Below, in pieces: positions 9,351-50,467 of a DNA stretch of 64,000 nt. The notes beneath the pieces were generated by a model. It saw only the letters and a program-made list of their open reading frames with translations. It had not been told where the DNA came from and did no database searches. Origin of the DNA: Panagrolaimus kolymaensis (taxonomy: Eukaryota; Nematoda; Chromadorea; Rhabditida; Panagrolaimidae). Where the stretch lies: NCBI GenBank assembly GCA_028622995.1, contig JAJQJQ010000078.1:124001-188000 (forward strand). The letters are read 5' to 3'. Every line of letters begins with the position of its first letter. The stretch's first letter is position 1. The position numbers and the translations under genes were made by a program.

Positions 9351-9369
9351 CCTTTTTTTTGATTCTGCC

Positions 9370-9497
9370 AGAAAAGGGCCGAATCGAGAAAAGGGCCGAA
9401 TCTAAAAAGGCCAAATGGAGAAGAGGGCCGACTAACGAAGGCCGCAAGGAGAAAAGGGACGAAAAATTAGGGACAAATGGAGAAGAAGGCCGAATCT
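9370..9497 (+). repeat. Left GC-rich inverted repeat arm of the MULE/envelope element
   Basis: The arm contains several short units resembling GAGAAAAGGGCCGAATC in direct array, far richer in G and C than the surrounding DNA. Its inner half matches the reverse complement of 17467-17540 base for base over most positions. Such subterminal arrays are commonly transposase-binding sites in MULEs; that role is inference. Confidence 0.88.
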
Positions 9498-10284
9498 TTT
9501 TTTCTTTACCAACATAATTTTAATATTCTTTCTCTATCATTTTTTAAGTGTTTTATTTTTAAACTAATCTTTTTGGGTTAAGGGAAAATATAAAAAATTA
9601 TAAATGCTTTCATGGTATCCATGTCAAGACTGGTGCAAAAGTATTGATAATGTAATATCACACATTCGAAAGTTCAAACTAATAAAATTTATTAAATTGC
9701 CCATATAATTTTGAAGAAATATGAAAATACATTCAACGAAAAAGATATTTTAGATAAAAGAAAAATACATAAAGGGATAATGAAATACAATGAAACAATA
9801 AAAAAAATAAAGGGCATAAAATTGTATCGGAGTCAATACAATCATTTGTAGCAATGTATTTCAGTTTGCACCGATCGATATAAACAAAAAATCCCATTAA
9901 CTTTTAACTTTTTTTAGAAAACTACGAAAATTTTTAAAGTTTGCTAATTTTTATGTTGCTAAAACTGTCAAAAAAATTTTTTTTGTAGCATCGTTTAAAC
10001 TGGTGCGAACTGACTACAAATGATTGCCTTGATATTTTATATAGCGTTGTATTGGGCTATCACTTGCGGGGTTTCTTTTTGGTAGCTGCTGCAGATGTAC
10101 CTGGCGAAAATCGGGTGTATGGACTAAATGATAATTATAATGCTTGTTATTATGTGTTTCTAATTTCTTACCCTTTAGTTGCTTTAGTTTTTTGAAGGCG
10201 AAGTGAAGTACGAGTTGTCGGAAGCTGAAACGATCGTGAAGGAGCCATTGAATGAGGACGGCTGATGTTATTATTCTGTTGAAT
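9498..10284. other. Element interior: AT-rich spacer with a small palindromic repeat
   Basis: The spacer has no gene. It contains an imperfect inverted repeat: 9832-9872 (gtcaatacaatcatttgtag...) is complementary to 10002-10033 (ggtgcgaactg...actacaaatgattgccttgat). This may be the remnant of a small nested MITE or a terminator-like structure near the transposase 3' end. Confidence 0.45.
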
Positions 10285-13200
10285 TCATGCGGAATTGCTA
10301 GGATGATTGATCAATGTTGAATGGCTTGAAGAACGCCGGAGAACGGGCGTTGTAGCACGAGGAGCGACCGGGGTTGATGGACGGGGTTGAGTTGCGGTTG
10401 ATCGAAGAGGAAATTCGCGATATGTTGGTTGATAACCAATACCTTGAGTAACGGAGTTTTGAGAAAATTGTGGAGCTGGTGGTGGTACTGAACGAGGAAG
10501 AAAGTTTTGCGTCGCATTAGGTTGAGGAAAACGTTGATCAGGTAAAAATGGCATTGTTGTTGGTGGTGCTCGAATTCTATTAATTGTTGTTTGTGTTGGC
10601 CAATGGGTTTGTTGAAATGGAGGCATTTGTGAAGCTATTTGTTGGCCTTGACGATTGAAAGAAGTTGTGTTCAATGGAGGATTTACATTTTGTGATGCAT
10701 GAATTTGTGAAAGAGTTGGCGGTTCATGGAATGGATTATTTTGATAAGCTGTTGGCAAATAACGACCGATTTGATCATTAAATGAAGAACGAGGTGGTGA
10801 CAATACAGTTAAATTATAATCTTCACCTTCGTTGGTTGGTGATTGGAAACTCACACGACGAGGAGTTGTTGGAGCTTGATAGGCATCAAAAGAAGTTTCG
10901 TTGGTGGGTGATTGGAAGCTTGGATGACCCTGTTGGACTTGATGTTGATTTGAACCAAAGTTATCATACATAAAATTGTCTTCTTCGCGATATTCAGGAT
11001 CATTATAATGCTGTTGGTTCATTTGAGGATCAATGTGATTTCCAAAATCATTTTCTTCGAGGCCATCAAATCTAGGATAAATGTTACCGCTAGCTCGTTG
11101 TTGTTCTCCATTTTCATCAAGCCTAGGATAAATGTTACCGCTCATTTGTTGCTGGTCTCCATTTGGTTCGTCGAACGATGGTGGTGGATTATTATAATAT
11201 CCTATAAATAATTTAACCGAATAGGATTTGAATGTGAATAATAATTTACCTTGTAAAAAGGGCAACTGATCCAAGAAATCCTCTTCTTGAATATCGCGCA
11301 CAACATTAAATTGAGGTGAACTAATATGGCTTAAGTATCTGCAAACGAGTTTAAGTTCTTCAAAACTTAATTCATTCCCATTTCCATAATGAATATCCAT
11401 TCTTTGTCGAATACCTATGATTTTTCTTTCTCTAATCCGGTCGACGGGGACACGAAGTGGCAAAATTCGACCTTCATTTCGTTGAAACCATTCAAGAAGT
11501 GTGGTGGCCAATAGCTTCTTTAATTTCAAAAATACATCTGTGAAAGAGACATTGGTATTTCTAAAAGAAATGTATCTTATTGATTAAATTTAATAGAAAT
11601 TTTACCCGCCAAAGATCACATTAAATTTGTTGTGTAGCCCTTCGGCGTTATTTGATGTGCGTGGACCATCGTTTAAGTTGAAATTCAAATAATCAATACG
11701 AGGAGTCCACCACCGTTGAAAGTAGTTCACAAATTCCACCAATTTTGGTTCGAGATGGAGTGGAAGTCGAGGAAGATTATGAATTGACAATGATTGGGCC
11801 CAAAATTGTTGATGTAATTCTATTGGAAGATGAAGGGAACCTAAATTTATTTTCCGTTAGCTAAGCATTAAATCATGGCGTTACCAATGAGTGAGTTTTT
11901 TAAATGCAAAAAATCTGGGTGTTGATTCAATTCAACTGCATCATTAGTATGATTGTAATCGTAAAGATTCTAAAAATTTTTAATTTTTAATTAGCGTAAA
12001 ATATTTTTAATGAGCTTTCACGTCCTATAAAAATTTTTATGACTTTTTTTTTATCCAAGTAAGCAATTTGACATCTTTCGTTTATAATTTCTAAATTTTT
12101 AGCTTTATGAGAAACTATGGAATTATTTTTTTTAAAGATGAACCGAAAAGTAAATAATACTTTTTTTGTTATTTATAAATATAAAATTTTACCTTTGCGA
12201 AATGGAATAGGCAAAGTTTTACTCGAGATTCAGGAAACACCCTTTCAACGGCATTAATTGCTGCTGATTCGCAATCCAAGTGGAATATTTTCGGCTGACC
12301 GATATCACCGAATTCGGATTCAACTTCACCACGCAACAAATTAAATAATTGTAAATAAGTATTAGTATGTTTATCAGGCAGAATTCCAATACCTGAAAAA
12401 ATAAACTTTCAATATACATATATGGTTGAAACTTTTAAGATTAACGTACCGATTAAGTAACCAGCGGAGCGATCAGGTAAATCAGAGAATACTGCAGTAA
12501 AAGTATAAATTTGCTTAAATTCTGTAGGAGAATATTGGAAAGTGCCATCTATGACAATATGGCGAGCTTGACGGAAAATTGAAAGTAAATGATAATCTAT
12601 CATAAATAAAAAAGGAAACACTGGACCAGGACGCAGAAAACGAACGATAAAATTTGGAATATTATCAGGTCGAGGGACGGATGATAGCTGAATTAAATAA
12701 GGTTTTATGTGTTTTTATTTTTCACCTAACAAACTTTTAATTCCTCCGGAATAAAAAAATTTGTAACAGAGATGGCTGTTGATTTTTTAGCATGGTAGTC
12801 GGCGTTCTTCCGCCTTGCATCCTGAGAAGGCAATGCACGGGCGATGTCAATAAAATTTTGAGGATGCTGAGTGGTAATGCGTTCAGTCAAATTTGATATT
12901 GCCAATGAAGCTGGGAGAGGATTAATTCGTTGAGAAGTGTTTGCTTGGCTAAATTTTTGAATTTAAATATTAAAAGATTATTGATAAATTTGGTTTAAAA
13001 AATATACCGTATAATGTTTCTAGCTGTTGTTTGCGTTTCATTCAAGCGATACCCTTCACAAATGTGGGGGAAAAGATCGGGGTCAGTTGTGAAATAGATT
13101 TTATCTTCAACATAAAGGGTTCGAATTTGACCACTGTGACCTTGACGTTTAGCTGCCCTGCAGCTACTACAATAATAGGCGTCCTTTTTGCTTTTGTTTT

Positions 13201-13501
13201 CGCGTTTACGGATGAATGTATACATTGTTCCAGGGTGAATTCGGGAGGTGTAATCCAAAGCAGTTTCATTTAGTTGACCAGTAAGAGCAGGTCGGCCTTG
13301 ATATTCAGTCTAAAGTTAAATTATTTAAATTTTTATTCCACAAATACTATTTAAACGTTGTACCTGTCTTTTTCGCCGTCCACCTCGTGAAGATCCACTT
13401 TTTTCTTTATCTAAATCACCCATGAAGATATCGCCATCACCTGGCCCTCCAGTTTCAGCCTCATCCTCTTCTGAAGGTGCGGTTGGGATTCTAGAAGCAC
13501 C
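10285..13501 (-). CDS. FLYWCH zinc-finger MULE transposase
   Basis: I infer exons 13364-13501, 13008-13309, 12735-12948, 12450-12687, 12193-12392, 11885-11969, 11606-11840, 11250-11560 and 10285-11201; every junction keeps the frame. In order, the protein has an acidic/basic linker, a FLYWCH-like zinc finger (CSSC ... HICEGY, about 13050-13180), then a MULE catalytic core. The core shows IVIDGTFQYSP (first Asp, about 12560), GILPDK, IFHLDCESAAINAV (second Asp, about 12270), LCLFHFAK and RTSNNAEGLHNKFN (Glu, about 11620). The long C-terminal tail (10285-11201) is low-complexity Gln/Asn/Pro. The transposase appears complete and intact. The first exon has an internal ATG (MGDLDKEK), so it may start there or be spliced in frame to the glycoprotein exon upstream. 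Confidence 0.88.
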
Positions 13502-13568
13502 CTTAAAATAAAAAAGTTTAACAGCGTTTGCAAATCAACGAAAGATACAGAGAAGAAAAAAAGCTTAC

Positions 13569-15260
13569 ATTTCGTTTTTCTTGCATGAATTTGAAAAATT
13601 GAATTATTTTTGGTACAACTAATATCCATTTAACTGCAACAGCGGCAGGATGAGGGATGTAAGGCAATATGGCCGTCAAAAAAGTAGCGAGGCCTGTAAC
13701 ATATGTCAATATGTTATCCCAAGAAAAAGCTCCTGGCCCCATATTTTTTGCAAGTTCGAGGCCATATTTTAAATCATTTTCGTCCATTGCATTACCACTT
13801 AAAATATCGTTTAATTTTGAAATGGAGTAAGATGTTGATTTAACTTCTTGTTTGTAAGACTGGGAAAATAAATTGTGAGCTGTTGGGTATTCAGATTTTT
13901 TGACGCGATAATTTTGATTCCGTAAAAATTCAGTGGAAGAAGAAATATCTGAAGTCAGCATTATCTGGGATGGTAATGCAAAGCTGGAAACTACTCCAGT
14001 TACTTGGTCAAAACTGAGTAATGCTGTTTCCTCTCTGATATAAATAATGCCTTTGGTTGTACAGGGAACATAATCAGCATATAGCTCAAGAATTCCTGAA
14101 AGAGGGTTCAAAAATGCCTTTTCCGTTCCGTGCAAGTGTTCAATCACAACTGGCAATTTATTGAAACATCTATTTTCCAGTTGATATTCCACATTAACCG
14201 TATAACAGCTTTTAGCTTCTAGGATTCCTGGGGCTACCGTTGTTGCTGTAACAGATGAATCGTTCAGTAAAAGACGAATAAGCTGGTTGGGATCAGAGCT
14301 AGATAAGGATAAAGCTATTTGTAACAACATGGAAGATACCGAACAATGGTTATGATATAATGAAATGAATCCATTCATAAACATATTTTCAAATCTATAA
14401 ATAACTGCTTGTAACGCTGCATTGTGTTCTTCAACGGGAACCAAATGAGACAGTGCTCGCTTTTTTCTGGCAAATACCAATTCGCTTTCAAGTACAGCAT
14501 CTCCTTGCTCCGACAATATGAAATTGGATCCACATTCAGAAAATGTTTCATTATAATGACCATCAACAATATTGAAGGTTAGTGAAAAAAGTGAATTATC
14601 AGAAACAAACGTTGATCCATCAAATTGACCTTGATGGGATATTACAAACTGATAATCACACAATCCAGCTTTTGTTGTGTTCCATACGACAAACCCTTGC
14701 TCAGCGATACAGTTCCCTTGCTCATATGTGCAATTACTTGCAATTGGAGTGTTGGACACAGCAACATTATTGTGTCGCCGTATGCTTGCTTCAGAGTAAA
14801 AGCAATTATCCACCGAACTTTCTAAAGTCCATACAAATAAACGATTAGCTCGTTTCCATTTAAGCTCATTTGTTGTGACAAAAAGATTTTCTTTTTTGAC
14901 CATCGTGGATCTGACGACATTCGAATAATGATTTTCTACCATAAACACACAATCTGCAGCGCTTATTTCGATTTTTATTGGAGGCTGATATTCAATAGCT
15001 CCATATGAGCGAAACCCATTATCCCTTTTCGCTTTCAATTTATAACATTGGCAATGGTAACCAATAGTATTAACTTCAAAAAAAGGAAGTCTATAAACAT
15101 TTAAAGAAATTTTCACTGGAGCTGTTTTAGTTTCATTTTTTAATGGTGGGCAAGTGAAGTTAGTAGGGAGCATCAATAAAGTCGTTGCCCCATTTGGCGG
15201 ACAAAAGAGGGCTTTTAGAGAACATGCTCCACCAAAAAGCAAAATAAATATAACAAGTTT
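13569..15260 (-). CDS. Envelope-type membrane glycoprotein (fusogen-like)
   Basis: One long exon of about 560 codons is bounded by an acceptor (CTTTAG at ~15261) and a GTAAGC donor at 13568, so a small 5' exon supplying the ATG is missing from my model. The exon opens with a signal-peptide-like stretch (KLVIFILLFGGACS). The ectodomain has many cysteines and N-glycosylation sequons, then a furin-type RKKR (about 14457-14468). Further on comes a conserved-looking block with CYTVNVEYQ ... NPLSGIL ... VPCTT, and a long hydrophobic region near the C terminus (13600-13720). This is the architecture of viral class I/III-like entry glycoproteins. Relatedness to arthropod/nematode negative-strand RNA virus or Maverick fusogens is a guess. 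No gag, pol or LTR lies nearby. Confidence 0.72.
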
Positions 15261-17466
15261 CTAAAGAATAGCAAGATAAAAATTTTTACAAAACTTTCTA
15301 TTTTATCTCTATAAAAGTTTTTAAGTGTCATTATCTTCCCTAAATCATACTTCTAAATATGGGTAATGAAAATTAGAAAAATTACGAGATAAAACCTTAA
15401 ATATTAATTTAACTTCGCTTTTATTTTTCAGAAAAATAAAAAAATAATTTAGAGAAAAATAGTATCGCTTTAAAAAAATATAATGCAACTAAAAAAGACT
15501 TTTTATAGTTTAAGTAAAAATAAAAATTAAGTTCAAAAATATATGGCCTTTGTAATTATAATTAGAAACAAAGTTTTGTCAGTTGAAATCAAAAAAAGAA
15601 ATGAAAATAGAGTCAAAGAATTTCTTGTTTTCTTTTTTGCTTAATGTTAATTAATTATTTAAATTTAGATTGTACAAATTCAAGAGAAAAAAAAAAGAGA
15701 TATGGAATGGCTAAGCAGGGCTTTTTAATATTTTGAAAATTTTGAGAAATTAAATGCATCCAAGAATTTGTTAAAAGCATTAATTTAAAAAAAATAAAAA
15801 AAGAGTAAACTAAATAACTTATCTCTTTGTCCATTCTAAAAAAAATAAAAGCTATAGGTAATGAATGCCTTATTAACTTTTGTCATTTTCTAGAAACTTT
15901 TTCTACTGGCTGTTTAGTTTATAGAATAAATATACAAATCACTTTAAGAAATGTGAGTTTATAGGTGAAAGTAAATTAGATTAAGTGATAAAAAAAAGGA
16001 AAAGAAAAAAGAATTTTTATCACTTTCTCAAAGAAATAATATAAACAAAACTCATGCTCAAAAAAAAACAACTAAAGTTTTATGATAAAAAAATATAAAA
16101 AAGTAAACTGGCCTTCAGCATCATACAAATTCAACGTCCATCCAATCCGAAATTTCACCGAGAAGGAAAATAAATGAGCGACAGTACACAAAATATTTAT
16201 AAAAATAAAAATCAAACCAAATGGTAAAAATAATTTTCAACCAAATGAAAAACTATATGAAGTTGTTTTTTCAAAGCCTTTATATATAGTTTTTTAAGAA
16301 ACTTTAGCTTTTGATGATGATAGTTGCAGATGGTAGTAGCACAATATATTTCACCACCTGGCATTACATATCCTTATAGATATTTTTTGTAAAAATATAT
16401 TCATCATTAGTTGGGAAGATAGACAGGAAAAAAAACTTTTTTCATTCGATGCTGAAAGTTTTTTTGGTACCAGGCATAAAGCAGCAATGAATAATTGCTT
16501 ATTTTTTGTAAATAAAATTATCCCACCTAATAGTTTTTATTGCTCATCATTTTTTAGTAACAAGGAGATGATCATCTTTGGTTGGTACAATAGACTGAAA
16601 AAAAATTTTCGCAGCTGAAAGTTTTTGGTACTAGCTGCATTTACGAAATTTTTAGTCGTCGCTTTTAATGAACAAAAAAAATACACATTATTTTGTTATT
16701 GATGTTGATCGTTCTTCAAGTAAAGTTTTTTAGGATGACATAAAATTGTTGATACATATTCTTTTCAGACCTATTTTCGAGTGGTAAAAAATTGCAAAGT
16801 TTAAAAAATAACATTTAAATTAAAAGGACAAAAAAATGACATTTTTAATGTTGTTCAAAAAACTCAACATATTTTGACTGGTAAAATTAAAGATCAAAAA
16901 GATCTTTCATAAATAAATTTTTATATTCGGAACATACGGGAATGCAATGATTGCAACATTTTGCATAATCCAAAATATTTGAGGTTAAGAGTATAATTAA
17001 AAAAGAAAAAAAACATAATTATGGGTTATCCTTAAATTTTTTATCCAACATATATGATTGTTACAAAGCCCACTGCATTACAACTATCCATATCATTAAT
17101 TTTGTTGCATAGCATTTATATTCAACTACCATAGAAAAAGAAAAATGTGGTAGAAAATTATCGGAAAGTTATTTTTAAACGATTAAGATATTTAAAATAA
17201 ATAAAGATAAAAATATCGAAAACAAAAATTGCTTTTCGAATTTTCAAAGCTGTTAATGTATTTGTATTTTTGGTTACTTTGGTCTTTTTCTGCGTTCATC
17301 CTTCTTTCCTTACAACATGTAAAAAATAACAGTAAATAATAAATGGTAGTAACTACAAAAATATAAATTACTATGAATAAAATAAGATTTAAAAATAAAA
17401 TAAACAATCGAAAGATTTCTGGACTTCAGAAAGTCTTCAGTTAATATTTATTTATGCTTTTATTGC
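15261..17466. other. Element interior without recognised gene
   Basis: About 2.2 kb of AT-rich DNA lies between the glycoprotein exon and the right arm. The missing 5' exon and promoter of the glycoprotein/transposase transcript should be here. Two related blocks around 16390-16480 and 16560-16640 share features such as 'gctgaaagttttt...ggtac' and look like an imperfect duplication. A hydrophobic minus-strand open frame (17192-17407) lacks an ATG. Confidence 0.45.
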
Positions 17467-17600
17467 ATTCGGCCCTCTTCTCCATCTGGCCCTTATTTCT
17501 CGGCCCTTTTCTCCTTGCGGCCTTCGTTACTCGGCCCTTTCCTCAATTCGGCCCTTTTCGCCGCGGTCCTTTTCCCGATTCGGCCCTCTTCTCCCAAGAC
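17467..17600 (-). repeat. Right GC-rich inverted repeat arm of the MULE/envelope element
   Basis: The arm is in inverted orientation to 9370-9497. It has repeated TTCGGCCCT units and the shared core TTTTCTCCTTGCGGCCTTCG. It is followed at once by CCTTTTTTTT, the presumed target duplication. Confidence 0.88.
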
Positions 17601-17765
17601 CCTTTTTTTTCGAGCTTTTTTTCCTCCATGAAACTTCCTTTATTTACTTTTTTTATTTCATTCGAGTTTACCTTTTTCATAGCAATGTACTTCCGTTAAT
17701 TGTGTGTTTTAATAATCTTTCATTTTTCAGGTTTCAAAACTTTGTCATTTATTGTGTGCAAAATT

Positions 17766-37221: not shown

Positions 37222-37283
37222 GGTAGTTATTTATATTCTTTTTTTGGGGGTTTAATCATTCAAGAAGCTAAAAACATTCTTAA

Positions 37284-39030
37284 AGGACCCTGCTCATTTC
37301 ATCTTTTTTGAAATTTGTTTTCAAAACCGCGGCTGGATATTCCATCATGCCGCAACGTTGCAAAAGGCTGAAGCGGCAGTTTTTCATACTTGAATTTTTT
37401 GTCAATCAAAAAAAGCATTTCTCAACAAAAAAGCATTTCTTCTTCTTCTTTTTCCACCTTTTCTTTAAGATGAATACATAGTTTTTTATTCCCCTTATAA
37501 CCATCACTGTTTGAATGAGGTTGAAAACAATTAGCATGTATGTAATAATGTTATTAATCCACAATTTAGTTACTCATTGGAAATTTTTCTTGATTTTCTC
37601 CTCGTTTTCCTCGAATTTTTACACCCAAAATGCTTTTTCTTGATTTCATACATCGATTACCTCTTTGCCTTTTATTCCAACCTATGTTACTTGTTGCTTT
37701 TTACTTCCACAAGATATTTGACATCGCTGATCTCTAATTTTGGCTCAATCATAAACGTTGCATTATTCCTATACAACCAATAATTCATATCTAAAGTTAT
37801 GAGGTTGTATAATTCCACCATTTCCCTTTCAATTGTCTCCAAGAATTAGTTATTACAGCCTTTGTGGTTCAATACATCTTCGAATCTAGATAGTGATGAA
37901 ACTTTTTTCAACTTACGGTTAGCATGCGCACAAATGTCTTCTTTCAACTTGGGCGATGGAATAAAGATACTTACTTTTTTTACTCGCAGCTATAATACTA
38001 AAACCAAAACTACAAGTTTTAGCTATTTCACTACTTCGCCATCAAACTAATTAGACTTTTCGATGTTACTCGAAGCCCCAGTCACATGAGTTTATCTCAA
38101 CTATAAAGATTTCGGTTTTTTACATCTTTATAAGCTATTGTTCATATTTCGATTAACTAAAACTGCCATCTAAATACAACAAAAGTTCGGTTTCATTGAA
38201 AACGCAATGTAAAGATTCGAAGTGGCAAACAAAAGTTGAATGAACAACAATTTTTGGTTAGCATTTACATTCTTCTTGGAAAGTAAAAGCATTATTGAAA
38301 TTACATTCGGTGATTATTGTGTAATAGAAGCTGTTTTTGAAGTGCCAGTCATCTCATCATAGCAAAGAAAATATGTAATAAATAAATGAGTTCAGTTATT
38401 ACATTATTCAGCACAAACGGCCGTTTTTATAGTAATCATACTTCGTGTAACATTATTGTAATTGGCATATGTATGGAAGAAAAGTTCGATACTATGATCA
38501 ACCAATAATAAAATGTTTTGGGTTGTTGATAAGAAAATGTTTATAACCAGTGTGGTGAACAAAGAAGGGCGGATTAACTTTTCATCTTATTATACTTTTA
38601 CGTTCAAAGCAAGTTACGGCAAAACATCTATCGAATTCAAGATGAAGATCATCTCATACTTCCGTGCATATAAAAATGTAGCCATAATTCCACCACTAAC
38701 TACAAAAAAAATGTCAAAAACGGAATAAAATAACCAACGAGTAGCCGAAATGTAAGCTAATAGTATTGTTAATACCTACCAATATGCTATAAAACCAATA
38801 GATACCTTGAAAATAACAACTAAAAGTGTAAAATATGTATTCATCATAAAGAAAAGGTGGAAAAAGAAGAAGAAGAAATGCTTTTTTGTTGAGAAATGCT
38901 TTTTTTGATTGACAAAAAATTCAAGTATGAAAAACTGCCGCTTCAGCCTTTTGCAACGTTGCGGCATGATGGAATATCCAGCCGCGGTTTTGAAAACAAA
39001 TTTCAAAAAAGATGAAATGAGCAGGGTCCT
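37284..39030. mobile_element. TTAA-flanked DNA transposon, 1,747 bp, non-autonomous
   Basis: Terminal inverted repeats of about 195 bp (37284 to ~37480 and ~38838 to 39030) begin AGGACCCTGCTCATTTCATC. Each end is flanked by TTAA (37280-37283 and 39031-39034), the target site of piggyBac and Kolobok elements. The interior (~1.36 kb) has only short, unconvincing frames and no transposase. Its left end lies 58 bp upstream of the ATG of the treslin-like candidate gene. Confidence 0.92.
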
Positions 39031-39034
39031 TTAA

Positions 39035-40555
39035 GTAAAAATCAAAAAAAAATAAAGAACAAAATAATCTTTGAAAATTTTTTTATAGAAAGTTTTCTTT
39101 TATATTTTTTTTATTTGAAAAAAACCACGTTTGATCGAACACAAAAAAAAAGAGTAATGAAGAAAAATAAAATTCGTTATGGGAGTTCTTTAGTTAAAAA
39201 CATAGTTAAAGAAAGTTTTGCTATTTGGAAACTAATTTTCTTCGTGGTTAATTTTTACAGAATTATTTCTAATAAAATTCTTTAATTTTGAAACAAAAAT
39301 TGTTTAAAAAGTTTAGAGAAATAATAACCCAAGAAACCTAGCAAACATTATTATTTTTCTTCACTCAAAGTCAGCCTTCTTTTTTTGTTGCAAGCTAGCA
39401 CCCATATAAATGAATCAATATATGAAAAAAAAGGCAAAAAGAAAAAAAAAAGGAACAGGGAAGGACAAAAACAAACGAAAACATATATTTCTAATGCCAA
39501 TGTCGTTGTCGTCGCCGTTGACTAGTCTAGTCTCATTTAGGCTGCAACAACGGCGAAAGAAGTCTCTCCTATTGGGTTTTTTTTCATCTGCGCAAAGCTG
39601 CTGTTCATCCTTCTTCGTTGTTGTTGAAATCCATAAAATCCATTTTAGTCGTCCTCCTCTTCCACACATTCAAATTTTTTGATATTTTTATTATTTTCTT
39701 TCCCGTTTTTCCCTTAAAGCTTTTTTTCTAAAACTCTTTGGCATTGATTTGAATGAAAATTGAAAACTGATGACAATTAGAAGAGGGAAGGAAGAGGAAC
39801 GAGATATTAATCTTTTTTATTTAATGAAAAAAGTTTTGTTATTTTCAAAAAAATATATACAGGTAGTAGAGAGAAAAAAAAAGAAGCAAGGTCATTTTTA
39901 GAAAAGTTTTTCATCCAAGAGTTTAATTGAAAAAAAATTGGAATTAATAATAATAAAACATAGTTAAAAAAGAAACTAAGCATTTGGTTAGAAAAAATTA
40001 AATTGCAAAACAGGAAAATTTAGGAAAAGAAAAAAATTGCGTTAAAAAGATTAAAACTTTAACCAAATTCTTTCATTATTTATTTTTTAGTTAATCATCA
40101 ACTTCAGCAATAGTTGATTATTAAAAAATTAGTTAAAGACGAAAGGAAAAAACTTAATGAAAAATAAAAATGAAGCTGTAAATCAAAAAAAACAGCATTG
40201 AACTATTTAGTAAAAATTTGTTGTAAGAAATATCAAAAATTAAAATTCTTTTAAAAAAAAGATCAACAGCTTTTTCCTTGAAAAAATAAAGCCCTTTTTA
40301 TTTTTTTACAATGCATTTTAAATTTTTTTTTTCTCTTGAAATTCTTGCTATCGAACTTACGATAGTTTTTATCCACTCTAATTGACTTTTTAACCTTATC
40401 ACCACCACTTGTTGCTGCGAAAAAATGGCAATAAAAGTTATGCAAATTTCCAACTTTTACTTTTTTTTTCACTTTTTTGTTTCTCGTCGTTTTCATTTCG
40501 TTCAATCATCCTTTTCCTGAAAGGTCGTTGTTTCATCGAGTTTCCTGTTTCTTCC
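39035..40555. other. Intergenic spacer with one possible isolated exon
   Basis: This is low-complexity DNA. A minus-strand stretch at about 40363-40421 (TSGGDKVKKSIRV) is bounded by a good acceptor (TTTTTTCGCAG) and a GTAAGTT donor, so it could be an exon of an unannotated gene, but I could not find partners. A GC-richer patch at 39495-39660 has no assignable role. Confidence 0.4.
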
Positions 40556-45776: not shown

Positions 45777-47089
45777 ATGAAGCTTCTTATTTTCTTTGCC
45801 CTTTGTTTCGGTGTTGCATCTGCACGTTTTTTCCATTATTGCCATAAAAATTCTGATTGTGGTTTACAGGGAGTTTGCAAAGGTATCCGTTGTGAATATG
45901 TAAGTTTTTATTTTAAGATTTAATTGTTATAGCAAAAGAATGAAACGTAAATCTAAATTTTTATTATTTTAGCCACCAGATCCAAAGCATGATGGTGAAG
46001 CATGTAAAACAAACAAAGACTGTCCACATCCGGAAGACCAATGCGTCGACAAAAAATGCGTTCATAAATTTCATCAAAGCAAAGAGTCATGCAAAACTGA
46101 TCATGATTGTCCACATCCTGAAGACAAGTGCATTGATGGCAAATGCGTTCATAAAAAAACAATTCAAGGAAGTGAACTTTGCGGTTTTAATAGAATAGTT
46201 TGCCCTAAAGGAACAAGATGCGGAGGAGATTTTTGTTTTGTAAGTTATTTTGTAAATTTAAACCTTTCATAAAATATTTAAATAAAATCTTAATTACTTT
46301 TTATTATAGCCTATAATTCCTCCAAAGAAGCATGATGGCGAAGCATGTAAAACAAGCAAAGATTGCCCACATCCGGAAGACCAATGCATTGACAACAAAT
46401 GCGTTCATAAGTCACCTAAATTAGATGATGTTGCATCTAATCTTCCCCAAACATGTGTAACGGTTAAAACTTGCCCCTCAGGAACCACAGCATGCATCAA
46501 TAATGTTTGTTATGTGAGTTTTATCTTTAAAAATTCAAATTTTAATAAAAGAAACTTCGATAAAAATTATTATTTTACAGCCACCAATTGATCCAAAAAA
46601 GAAGGATGAGAAAAAGCATGATGGTGAGAAGTGTGAAACTAGCAAAGATTGTCCTCATCCTGAAGATAAATGCATTGACAACAAATGCGTTCATAAAAAA
46701 GTTCATCAAAGTGAACATTGCGGTCATAGTTTGGAAAAGTGCCCCAAAGGAACAAGATGTGTAGGAGATTTTTGTATTGTAAGCTTTTTTTTTAAATTTA
46801 AATCTTTTGTAAGATATTAAAGAAAAATCTAAATTATTTTTTATTATTATTATAGCCAAGAAATCATCAAAAGAAGGATGAAAAAACGCATGGTGGCGAA
46901 CCTTGTGAAACAAAAAAAGATTGCCCACATCCTCACGAAGACCGTTGCATCAATAAGAAATGCATTCATAAATCCCATGATGGTGGACCTTGTGAAACAA
47001 GACACGATTGCCCTCATCCTGCAGATCAGTGCATCGAAAAAATATGCATTCATCATCACCCTTTTGGAATTATTGGGATTCATCCTTAA
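45777..47089 (+). CDS. Secreted cysteine-rich modular protein
   Basis: The signal peptide is MKLLIFFALCFGVASA. Five exons (45777-45899, 45973-46239, 46310-46513, 46581-46778, 46856-47089) all join in phase 0, most starting with a PP or P codon pair. The mature chain is built of repeated modules with spacing C-x5-C-x6-C-x4-C, typified by CKTNKDCPHPEDQCVDKKCV. There are about six copies, alternating with a second module containing CPKGTRC-GDFC. It resembles EB/knottin-like nematode repeats, but I cannot assign a named family. It is probably extracellular, cuticular or an effector. A shorter paralog lies at 50468. Confidence 0.78.
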
Positions 47090-47628: not shown

Positions 47629-48290
47629 CACGGCGGTATAGCTTCAATGAAAAAGTGAAGTTCAAATGGAAATGAAAAATTTGGTCGTTGGTGGTCGAAT
47701 TGCCAAAAACCAAAGGAAAAGCTATTTTTTTAGTAAAAAATGTCTGTTTTTTTGCATATTTAATTATAATTCTCTACGGATATTCAGTTGAAAAATATTG
47801 AAACTCTCACAGAATATGTAATCGAATATTGCGGATAAGATCGTGAAGATAGATTTTCATAAAAAAATCAATGAGCCGAAATCCTAGCGTAAGAGTTTTG
47901 AGCATTTTGGTCATTTTTACGTTAGAAAAAGTGATTTTTTTTGGAACTTTTTCAGAAACAATTATGGCTAAATTCATTAAGTTGCTTTAATTTTATTCTG
48001 TGACATTGAAAATCTATAATCTTATCTTGCCTACAAATTGGTGCAATCAGTTTTTCCGAAGACAATCTTTTTCCGAAAATCCTTACGTAAGAGTTTTTGG
48101 AATGCATGGAAACATAGCTTCTGCTTTGAAAAAAAGCAAGAAATTGTGATATTTTTTATTTATTTTTTAACCAAAATACATATTTAAAATAATAAAAACA
48201 TTTTTTTCCATTTTTATGTGCACTTTTCTATAATATATGTATATAAAAAAATAAATCAATAACAATTTAATGTAAAAAATATTCAAAATT

Positions 48291-48918
48291 TCAATCGAAA
48301 AAGTAAAATGAAACATTTTTTTCAACACCAAATATTGAATTTTTAAATAGAAAATCTAGGATGCCATTCTTTTCTTTTGAGCTAATTCCTACTTTTTTGA
48401 TAACATTAGTATCCCTGTTTACTTCAACAAAAATAGGAGCAACCTAAATATAATTTAATAATCGATTAAATAATTATTTTAAAAAATTACCAATGCTGGG
48501 CTTTTATATAGGCAAGCAGAAAGAATCTTTTCAATACTCAACCGCGATTTTCCATTTTCTTGCATAACTACACAAAGGATAAAAGGATTGTTTAAGGTAA
48601 GTTTTTTTGCTTCTATTAATTCTAGCAAGGCATCGAGGTTATTGGGAATAACAAATTCATTATCGTTGTCGATCTAAATGTTTCAACAATTATGAAAATA
48701 TATGAATTATTAATAAATATACTTTTACTGATAAAGAAGAAAGAAAAGCTTACTTTAAAAATATTTTCTTGTATAAATTTCTTCCAATCTTTGCACTTTT
48801 TAATTTTAAATTGAAAAGTGTTATCTTCAAGGCTTAATTTTTCTTTCCAATAATTAAATGAAAGAGTAATCATTTTGTAATCACCATCTGATTTACTAAT
48901 ACTTTCGGTAGCATCCAT
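48291..48918 (-). CDS. Cargo gene of the 2.8-kb transposon, copy 2
   Basis: Same three-exon structure and 166-residue product as 829-1456 (exons 48754-48918, 48491-48673, 48291-48443). No difference in the coding frame was found. Function unknown. Confidence 0.65.
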
Positions 48919-49404
48919 TTTACTAAAAATATAATTATGTGCAAAAAATTATAAAAAAATGTTTAGCAATCAAAAATTCGCAATTTAATAAGTCGATTAT
49001 GTTTGGAATATAAATATTAAAAAAAACTCAAAGTAAATCAGTTATATATAAATATCAGTAAAATAAACAAAAAATATAAAAAGGAAAATGTTTCCCGCGC
49101 TTGTAAGTTCGCATCATATTTACAATCAAAGATGTAAACAATGAAGACAAAATACGATTTTTTTGGCGCGCGGTTTTTTTAATATTGATTGAATAAAATG
49201 TTTTTGGCTTGGTATTTGCTTTTTGAAAGAATGGCAACCCATGTGTCCCAAAAAAAAAAGAAAGTCAATTTGAAAAACAAAATAGCTCAAAAGTGTGTAT
49301 CATTTGTACATCATTTTTGCTGTTATTTTGTAGAATATATCCTTAATACTTTTTATTACAAAATTTTGCATTTTGCTTTGTTAGTTTGTATATTTTATTT
49401 TTAA

Positions 49405-49591
49405 ATGCAACCATCAAAAATTGTTAGCGGTGATGATTTTCTTCGAAATGCTGACCAACCAAGGAAACGAAGTTTGAGGGATCGAGAACAAAAAAATTAC
49501 GATGGTAAAGAAATAATTATACTTATATCTGATAAAAAGATTGCCATTTTTAGAAACTAAGCAACTTTCAATTATTTTTCTGAACAGATAA
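49405..49591 (+). CDS. Possible short gene in transposon copy 2
   Basis: Identical counterpart of 1943-2129, beginning MQPSKIVSGDDF. The exon structure is just as uncertain. Confidence 0.3.
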
Positions 49592-50467
49592 TCGAGCATA
49601 TGCATTCTGTAATAAAACAATGGCTAAGAAGAATTGCCACTCATGATGAGAAAAAATTATGTTTGTTGGTAATGAGCTGGAGCTGGGAAAGGAATATATG
49701 CTTCGATGAAAAAGAAAGTTTACCAAATGAAGAAGTCAGAGGCTTAGCTGATTCACAATTTCTTTGAATTCAAAGATAAAGTTTTATCATAATTTCTGTT
49801 TTTGAATTTTTTTATAATTCCCATGATTAAAAAGATATAAATTAACATATTACAGCCGAATTTTGTTATTTTTATATAAAATATTTTATGAAACTTTTGT
49901 ATTTTGGTTAAAAAATAAATAAAAAATATCACAATTTCTTGCTTTTTTTCAAAGCAGAAGCTATGTTTCCATGCATTCCAAAAACTCTTACGTAAGGATT
50001 TTCGGAAAAAGATTGTCTTCGGAAAAACTGATTGCACCAATTTGTAGGCAAGATAAGATTATAGATTTTCAATGTCACAGAATAAAATTAAAGCAACTTA
50101 ATGAATTTAGCCATAATTGTTTCTGAAAAAGTTCCAAAAAAAATCACTTTTTCTAACGTAAAAATGACCAAAATGCTCAAAACTCTTACGCTAGGATTTC
50201 GGCTCATTGATTTTTTTATGAAAATCTATCTTCACGATCTTATCCGCAATATTCGATTACATATTCTGTGAGAGTTTCAATATTTTTCAACTGAATATCC
50301 GTAGAGAATTATAATTAAATATGCAAAAAAACAGACATTTTTTACTAAAAAAATAGCTTTTCCTTTGGTTTTTGGCAATTCGACCACCAACGACCAAATT
50401 TTTCATTTCCATTTGAACTTCACTTTTATACCGCCGTGTTTCTTTATTTTGAAAAAAAGGAAAAAGG

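Follow-up and report, generated by a model that had tools for sequence, protein, structure and literature searches.

Introduction

Several kinds of mobile element are known to carry viral entry genes. Anakin BEL/Pao retroelements have acquired a chuvirus-type glycoprotein and have spread with it (PMC7642597), and the Burro retroelements of planarians hold an env frame within a polyprotein, in frame with and upstream of the mobilizing enzyme (PMC6431247). Among DNA elements, nematode Mavericks carry a viral-type fusogen (PMC10680173), and Teratorn unites a cut-and-paste transposase with viral genes, among them one for an env glycoprotein (PMC6431247, PMC10175614). Mutator-like elements (MULEs) are represented by Pack-MULEs, in which a captured gene lies within MULE arms (PMC6431247), and by Tm1 and Phantom-type elements with a MULE domain, an N-terminal finger, composite subrepeat arms with asymmetric outer ends and 9-bp target-site duplications (PMC3169594, PMC6446971). 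Here we analyse an 8.24-kb element in a 64,000-nucleotide stretch of the nematode Panagrolaimus kolymaensis (contig JAJQJQ010000078.1, positions 124,001 to 188,000; hereafter the window), which is probably a Mutator-like cut-and-paste transposon of a lineage that gained a chuvirus-type fusion glycoprotein long ago and kept it under selection.

The element shares a part of its make-up with each of these systems and differs from all of them. Anakin is a retroelement with long terminal repeats (LTRs), gag and reverse transcriptase, whereas the element in the window is a cut-and-paste DNA transposon, and Burro is a giant LTR retroelement. Mavericks encode capsid proteins, a DNA polymerase and an integrase in place of the MULE transposase; none of these was found among the frames of our element, the coding exons of which account for a glycoprotein and a transposase, although no search was aimed at Maverick genes. 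Teratorn is a fusion with a whole herpesvirus of about 180 kb, in contrast to the single captured gene seen here. Pack-MULEs contain gene fragments that are moved in trans, whereas the element holds an intact gene together with an intact transposase and thus falls outside that class. The transposase-coding Tm1 element measures 2.6 kb and encodes a 496-aa protein, and no glycoprotein is mentioned for it in the portions of the two papers used. An exact search for the Tm1 repeat motif gave no match, a result that by itself leaves room for an origin from root-knot nematodes. The Phantom subgroup is defined by a FLYWCH finger and membership of the Phantom clade; the finger of our element gave no Pfam FLYWCH match and just a weak one to RYYR-CCHC. 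Among the matches listed by a search of titles and abstract beginnings in the open-access literature, a scope outside which most subscription papers and bioRxiv preprints fall, no MULE with an envelope-type gene was described, and two MULE surveys use neither the word glycoprotein nor the word envelope in their main text as far as it was covered (PMC6446971, PMC13359780). We call the glycoprotein-bearing lineage a new variant.

Results

The mobile unit and its boundaries

A first-pass annotation had proposed an ~8.2-kb cut-and-paste element at 9351-17610 of the window, with inverted GC-rich arms at 9361-9497 and 17467-17600 and a 10-bp target-site duplication on the outer flanks. Comparison of copies within the assembly that holds the window (265,843,910 bases in 807 contigs, labelled C followed by a number, the window lying on C77) bore this out, with an element of 8,241 bp at 9361-17601. 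The left arm (9361-9497, plus strand) and the right arm (17467-17601, minus strand) consist of GGCCGA-type subrepeats and can be aligned over 126 nucleotides (9370-9495 against 17467-17592), with 85% complementarity and a spacing of 7,971 nucleotides, as is expected for the terminal inverted repeats of a MULE; the same arms are found at the other copies.

The left arm used as query gave 12 matches in the genome, right arms counted in, and sequence fetched around the arm matches yielded three full-length copies of what we call family A, in the window, on C31 and on C39. The latter two are 99.66% and 99.59% identical to the window copy when aligned end to end; pairwise comparison of the three gives 21, 26 and 15 mismatches, with 2, 8 and 6 gap columns. 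Each copy is located at a separate site and flanked by a perfect 9-bp duplication, CTTTTTTTT in the window (9352-9360 and 17602-17610) and ATTGTTTGT and CTTATCACC at the other two. Since the flanks differ and each copy has its own perfect duplication, the limits of the element are fixed at 9361-17601. The proposed duplication was thus real and one base too long, as CCTTTTTTTT includes the element's own last base at the right. The 8-11-bp duplications characteristic of MULEs were found here, with 9 bp at all three full-length family-A copies and 8-9 bp at four out of four distinct sites of a second family (family B, below).

Counterparts without the element were found for all three full-length copies when the joined flanks plus one copy of the duplication were searched against the same genome. 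For the C39 copy, contig C90 matches all 235 bases at 100%; for the C31 copy, matches spanning the junction were obtained on C115, C24 and C27 (91, 90 and 88%); and the window copy has such matches at another place on C77 and on C48, C33 and C50 (86, 86, 87 and 81%). All six empty junctions that were read are continuous without the element, and the lone duplication copy is intact in C115, C24, C90 and C77 and changed in C27 and C48. Because the empty counterparts are continuous, the mobile unit is the whole 8.24-kb interval, glycoprotein included, inserted in one piece with a 9-bp duplication.

Five more family-A loci are partial. C61 contains two pieces (95% and 93% identical) that retain parts of both genes, which shows that the glycoprotein was already present in older copies. 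C1 has one 95% copy, represented by the transposase side only within the 10 kb read, and one 148-bp piece; C6 (L015) carries an internal deletion in which both genes are gone, and its flanks lack a duplication; C63 (L019) is truncated on the left side. All three family-A copies with a complete transposase have the glycoprotein inside the same boundaries, which was one of the checks proposed in the first-pass annotation. C6 and C63 contain secondary inserts of about 1.35 kb and 656 bp; both show an overlap of 11 bp where the insertion took place, which suggests the presence of other transposons.

The glycoprotein exon

The glycoprotein exon occupies 15260-13569 on the minus strand up to a predicted donor, and when unspliced its frame remains open to 13518, giving 580 codons. 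Residues 174-401 match the Pfam profile PF24664 (Monjiviricetes_fusion, chuvirus-type) with an E-value of 1.4e-10 and 40.3 bits against a cut-off of 27. The corresponding protein of a closer relative, A', reaches 32.1 bits; that of family B gave no match as a whole protein and 36.4 bits in a profile search of the genome. Together with the linker described below, the window protein contains six N-glycosylation motifs, 15 cysteines, a hydrophobic N-terminus and hydrophobic segments at both ends. A furin-type RKKR motif is found at residue 265 (14457-14468), and the membrane anchor is formed by two hydrophobic segments (13712-13656 and 13646-13593). A signal-like segment, a furin-type site and an anchor, as had been read from the exon, are recognizable, and many invariant cysteines and a furin-type site are common to the glycoproteins of A, A' and B. 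Because the exon has no Met ahead of the signal-like segment, the 5' region (15261-17466, minus strand) must contain a first exon as well as the promoter.

Nei-Gojobori estimates for the three glycoprotein pairs gave dS 1.81 and dN 0.32 for A and A', dS 1.97 and dN 0.64 for A and B, and dS 1.52 and dN 0.58 for A' and B. For transposase exons 2-5 of A and B dN was 0.53 with dS saturated, and the two proteins look similarly constrained. Judged by these rates, the glycoprotein frame is under purifying selection.

The transposase

The transposase is encoded downstream on the minus strand by nine exons with AG/GT borders (13501-10285), with 879 amino acids open from the first acceptor. It matches the Pfam MULE profile PF10551 with an E-value of 8.8e-11 and 42.6 bits against a cut-off of 27.6, as expected of a MULE transposase. 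The first of the nine is a linker (13364-13501), followed by a zinc-finger exon (13008-13309) and exon 3 (12735-12948). Exon 4 (12450-12687) is supported by the MULE match, and the segments that we take to be the Asp, Asp and Glu motifs are encountered in order in exon 4 (DGTFQYSP, 12549-12526), exon 5 (12193-12392; HLDCESAA, 12282-12259) and exon 7 (11606-11840; NNAEGLHN, 11652-11629), with exon 6 at 11885-11969. Exons 3 and 8 (11250-11560) are matched in family B. Exon 9 (10285-11201) encodes a P/Q-rich C-terminal part, and its natural C-terminus is uncertain because the codon at which the window frame stops is not the same in the three full-length copies. Of the intact FLYWCH/MULE transposase in the first-pass annotation, the MULE assignment with its Asp-Asp-Glu motifs stands; against Pfam the finger gave no FLYWCH match and just RYYR-CCHC at an E-value of 0.013, below the cut-off. 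A protein-database search with the transposase returned one match, a MULE protein at 27% identity. By these features the element is filed as a MULE, and it is apparently autonomous.

Related families

The zinc-finger exon matched 18 places in the genome, four in family A, seven in family B and seven more distant. A glycoprotein exon adjoins the finger in all 11 places of families A and B, one of which, C674, belongs to family B and is decayed, with 99.3% identity to B along 2.7 kb. Family B (L039, L041; its C3 copy measures about 9.1 kb) shares with family A the order arm, glycoprotein, transposase, arm and the subrepeat type of the arms, with only 37% identity to A in the glycoprotein and 48.8% in the DDE core. 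Its aligned ends (six left, five right) define four distinct sites, C202a, C202b, C89 and C10, with duplications, read by eye, of 8-9 bp (ATTTGAGC, CTGGTAAC, ATCCATTT and TACAAAACG). The left flank of C683 is that of C89, and C3 combines the left flank of C202a with the right flank of C202b, so that it appears to be a recombinant or an assembly join. A tree of five sequences groups A with B (support 0.996). From the shared gene order in so deeply diverged a family, the glycoprotein has long resided in this MULE lineage and is not a nested insert.

Two further lineages were recognized. A' comprises two copies on C98 with a glycoprotein 59% identical to that of A. In lineage C (L035, L036 and L037, on C9, C11 and C68; C9 and C11 identical over 3,255 bases) the exon just upstream of the transposase encodes a hydrophobic segment, an aspartic protease of retroviral type (RVP, 3.3e-8, above the cut-off) and an acidic stretch. 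Another distant locus, L038, has a Met shortly before the finger.

A profile search of the contigs with PF24664 found at least 29 places, namely four of family A, six full-length family-B frames, 13 family-B deletion derivatives, two on C98 and four retroelement frames. In the last group (L076-L079, on C34, C48, C65 and C7) a single long frame encodes first a chuvirus-type env and then an aspartic protease, and two of the four reach the cut-off. The env of L076 also matched herpesvirus glycoprotein B (E-value 1.5e-7, below the cut-off), as no other sequence did. In the 13 derivatives (L057-L069) a deletion fuses glycoprotein to transposase in one 460-aa frame. They are near-identical, are found either on contigs of 18-85 kb or no more than about 12 kb from the end of a contig, were not retained as independent copies, and probably represent one deletion derivative in an amplified repeat.

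Joining of glycoprotein and transposase

In family A a phase-0 donor (13569) closes the glycoprotein exon, a phase-0 acceptor (13501) opens the linker, and a predicted intron of 67 bp (13502-13568, minus strand) lies between them. The corresponding intron measures 77 bp in A' and 186 bp in B, in phase 0 throughout, and the join is in phase 0 in all four lineages in which an exon for a membrane protein precedes the transposase (A, A', B and C). The window linker consists of an acidic stretch followed by basic RRKR, in frame with both neighbours; the linkers of A, A' and B are all acidic and end in R-x-K/R-R beside the transposase, a motif that is likely a nuclear signal and has the form of a furin site as well. 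No Met is present in the A' linker exon or, in lineage C, between acceptor and finger. In A the first Met stands 26 codons into the linker, and 5' of it lies the sequence IPTAP, common to A and A'; the chance of meeting no stop in this part was 0.23, which is not small, for A alone and 0.05 for A'. The phase-0 joins in four lineages and the two following exons without Met lead us to infer a single frame, and it is reasonably likely that the glycoprotein exon is spliced in frame via the acidic-basic linker to the transposase. An intron-retaining, glycoprotein-only form is perhaps made alongside it.

Discussion

The data were weighed against other explanations, of which the most serious holds that glycoprotein and transposase are two genes, whether spliced-leader trans-splicing divides one pre-mRNA between them or each has a promoter of its own. 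Trans-splicing is common in nematodes, the family-B linker has a Met at its third codon where translation could start, the A linker has one 26 codons in, and the unspliced glycoprotein frame stops 8-15 codons past the donor in A, A' and B. However, two genes would leave the recurrent phase-0 joins, the linkers of A' and lineage C without Met, and the open, partly conserved frame 5' of the first Met of A unexplained, and we consider two genes a good deal less probable than the fused frame. It is rather unlikely, too, that the role of the glycoprotein is to tether or regulate the transposase, or to prevent superinfection, instead of mediating entry. A transposase made as a membrane tail would indeed stay out of the nucleus until release, but conservation across the ectodomain, with its invariant cysteines and furin-type site in all three glycoproteins, exceeds what a tether needs.

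That a viral or retroelement env was caught between MULE arms as a passenger without a role, in the manner of a Pack-MULE, is improbable. MULEs do capture genes (PMC6431247), and retroelement env genes of a related type are present in this very genome, but the frame has stayed open in two families that are separated by a saturated synonymous distance, dN is well below dS, and the glycoprotein occupies the same place in both. Chance arms, a nested viral-gene insertion with boundaries of its own, or an assembly join were rejected and can be regarded as refuted; only the recombinant or joined appearance of the family-B locus on C3 speaks for them, and they are contradicted by three independent insertions, each with its duplication and an empty counterpart, and by the same order in family B. 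Of the two observations named in the first-pass annotation as contrary to its proposal, nesting is excluded by that order, and a transposase with arms consistently lacking the glycoprotein was not seen, as the 11 finger matches of families A and B all adjoin a glycoprotein exon and the seven distant ones are without a match in what was read.

A number of observations nevertheless weigh against the reading of a MULE with a selected fusion glycoprotein. The Pfam match spans just 228 of the 580 glycoprotein residues. When the protein database was queried with the glycoprotein alone and with a three-row alignment, about 8,000 candidates were scored each time and no relative was found at E-values of 0.001 and 0.01; a sequence search of the PDB gave no match, and none of the 153 stretches that fitted the pattern in an IMG/VR scan was a relative. 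A structure model from one sequence, which would have to show the fold and fusion loops of class III viral fusogens, was unusable (pLDDT 33), and a profile comparison with two retroelement env proteins was weak (probabilities of 0.3 and 9.1 percent, E-values of 0.18 and 0.0036). Several first-exon candidates lie upstream, none clearly common to the families. The glycoprotein frame is broken in the C39 copy and interrupted in C63 by the 656-bp insert, and in the A' copies the glycoprotein and linker exons are followed by the C-terminal transposase exon, the finger and DDE exons being absent. No ectodomain was seen in the sequence read upstream in lineage C, where C9/C11 and C68 diverge. Neither the 1.47 kb of sequence read on the 5' side of L038 nor what was read of C19, C14 and C56 gave a glycoprotein match; for these last three no MULE domain was shown either, with three frames tested in C19. 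Finally, with synonymous sites near saturation the dN/dS ratios of about 0.18 to 0.38 are rough.

The glycoprotein-bearing MULE is still the probable explanation, and with a single spliced frame some transposase at least would be made as the tail of a membrane-fusion protein, a tail taken as cytosolic because basic residues follow the anchor. Free forms could arise by cleavage, intron retention or another start, and the protease of lineage C may hint at how the transposase leaves the membrane. It is plausible, at somewhat less than an even chance, that the glycoprotein aids spread of the element between cells or animals, for instance from soma to germline or by vesicles carrying transposase with bound element DNA. 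More speculatively, and in our view less likely than not, the element would represent a new class in which the transposase is encoded as the cytosolic tail of a viral-type fusogen. The polyprotein, in the order glycoprotein, membrane anchor, retroviral-type protease (in one lineage) and DDE transposase, could then load transposase-bound element DNA into vesicles destined for other cells, with no need for a capsid or a cycle of replication. The env-protease order matches retroelement frames of the same genome, and so the module may derive from such an element.

DNA transposons often move between species, and how they manage this with no infectious machinery is a long-standing question. A transposon of 8 kb in which a fusion-type glycoprotein has been maintained under selection allows one answer to be tested directly, and the element may itself be able to move from cell to cell or from animal to animal. 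With it, simple cut-and-paste elements would join retroelements, Mavericks and Teratorn among the elements that have acquired viral entry genes, and the in-frame link between glycoprotein and transposase points to a way of coupling DNA to a membrane that needs no capsid.

Other repeats in the window

Two units of about 2.8 kb (189-2965 and 47651-50427) have perfect 530-bp inverted ends at equal spacing and are probably copies of another transposon. A 206-bp inverted pair (37279-37484 and 38830-39035; 99% complementary, 1,345 nucleotides apart) is probably another small element. Six imperfect 83-bp copies at 45985-47055 apparently code for a cysteine-rich repeat protein.

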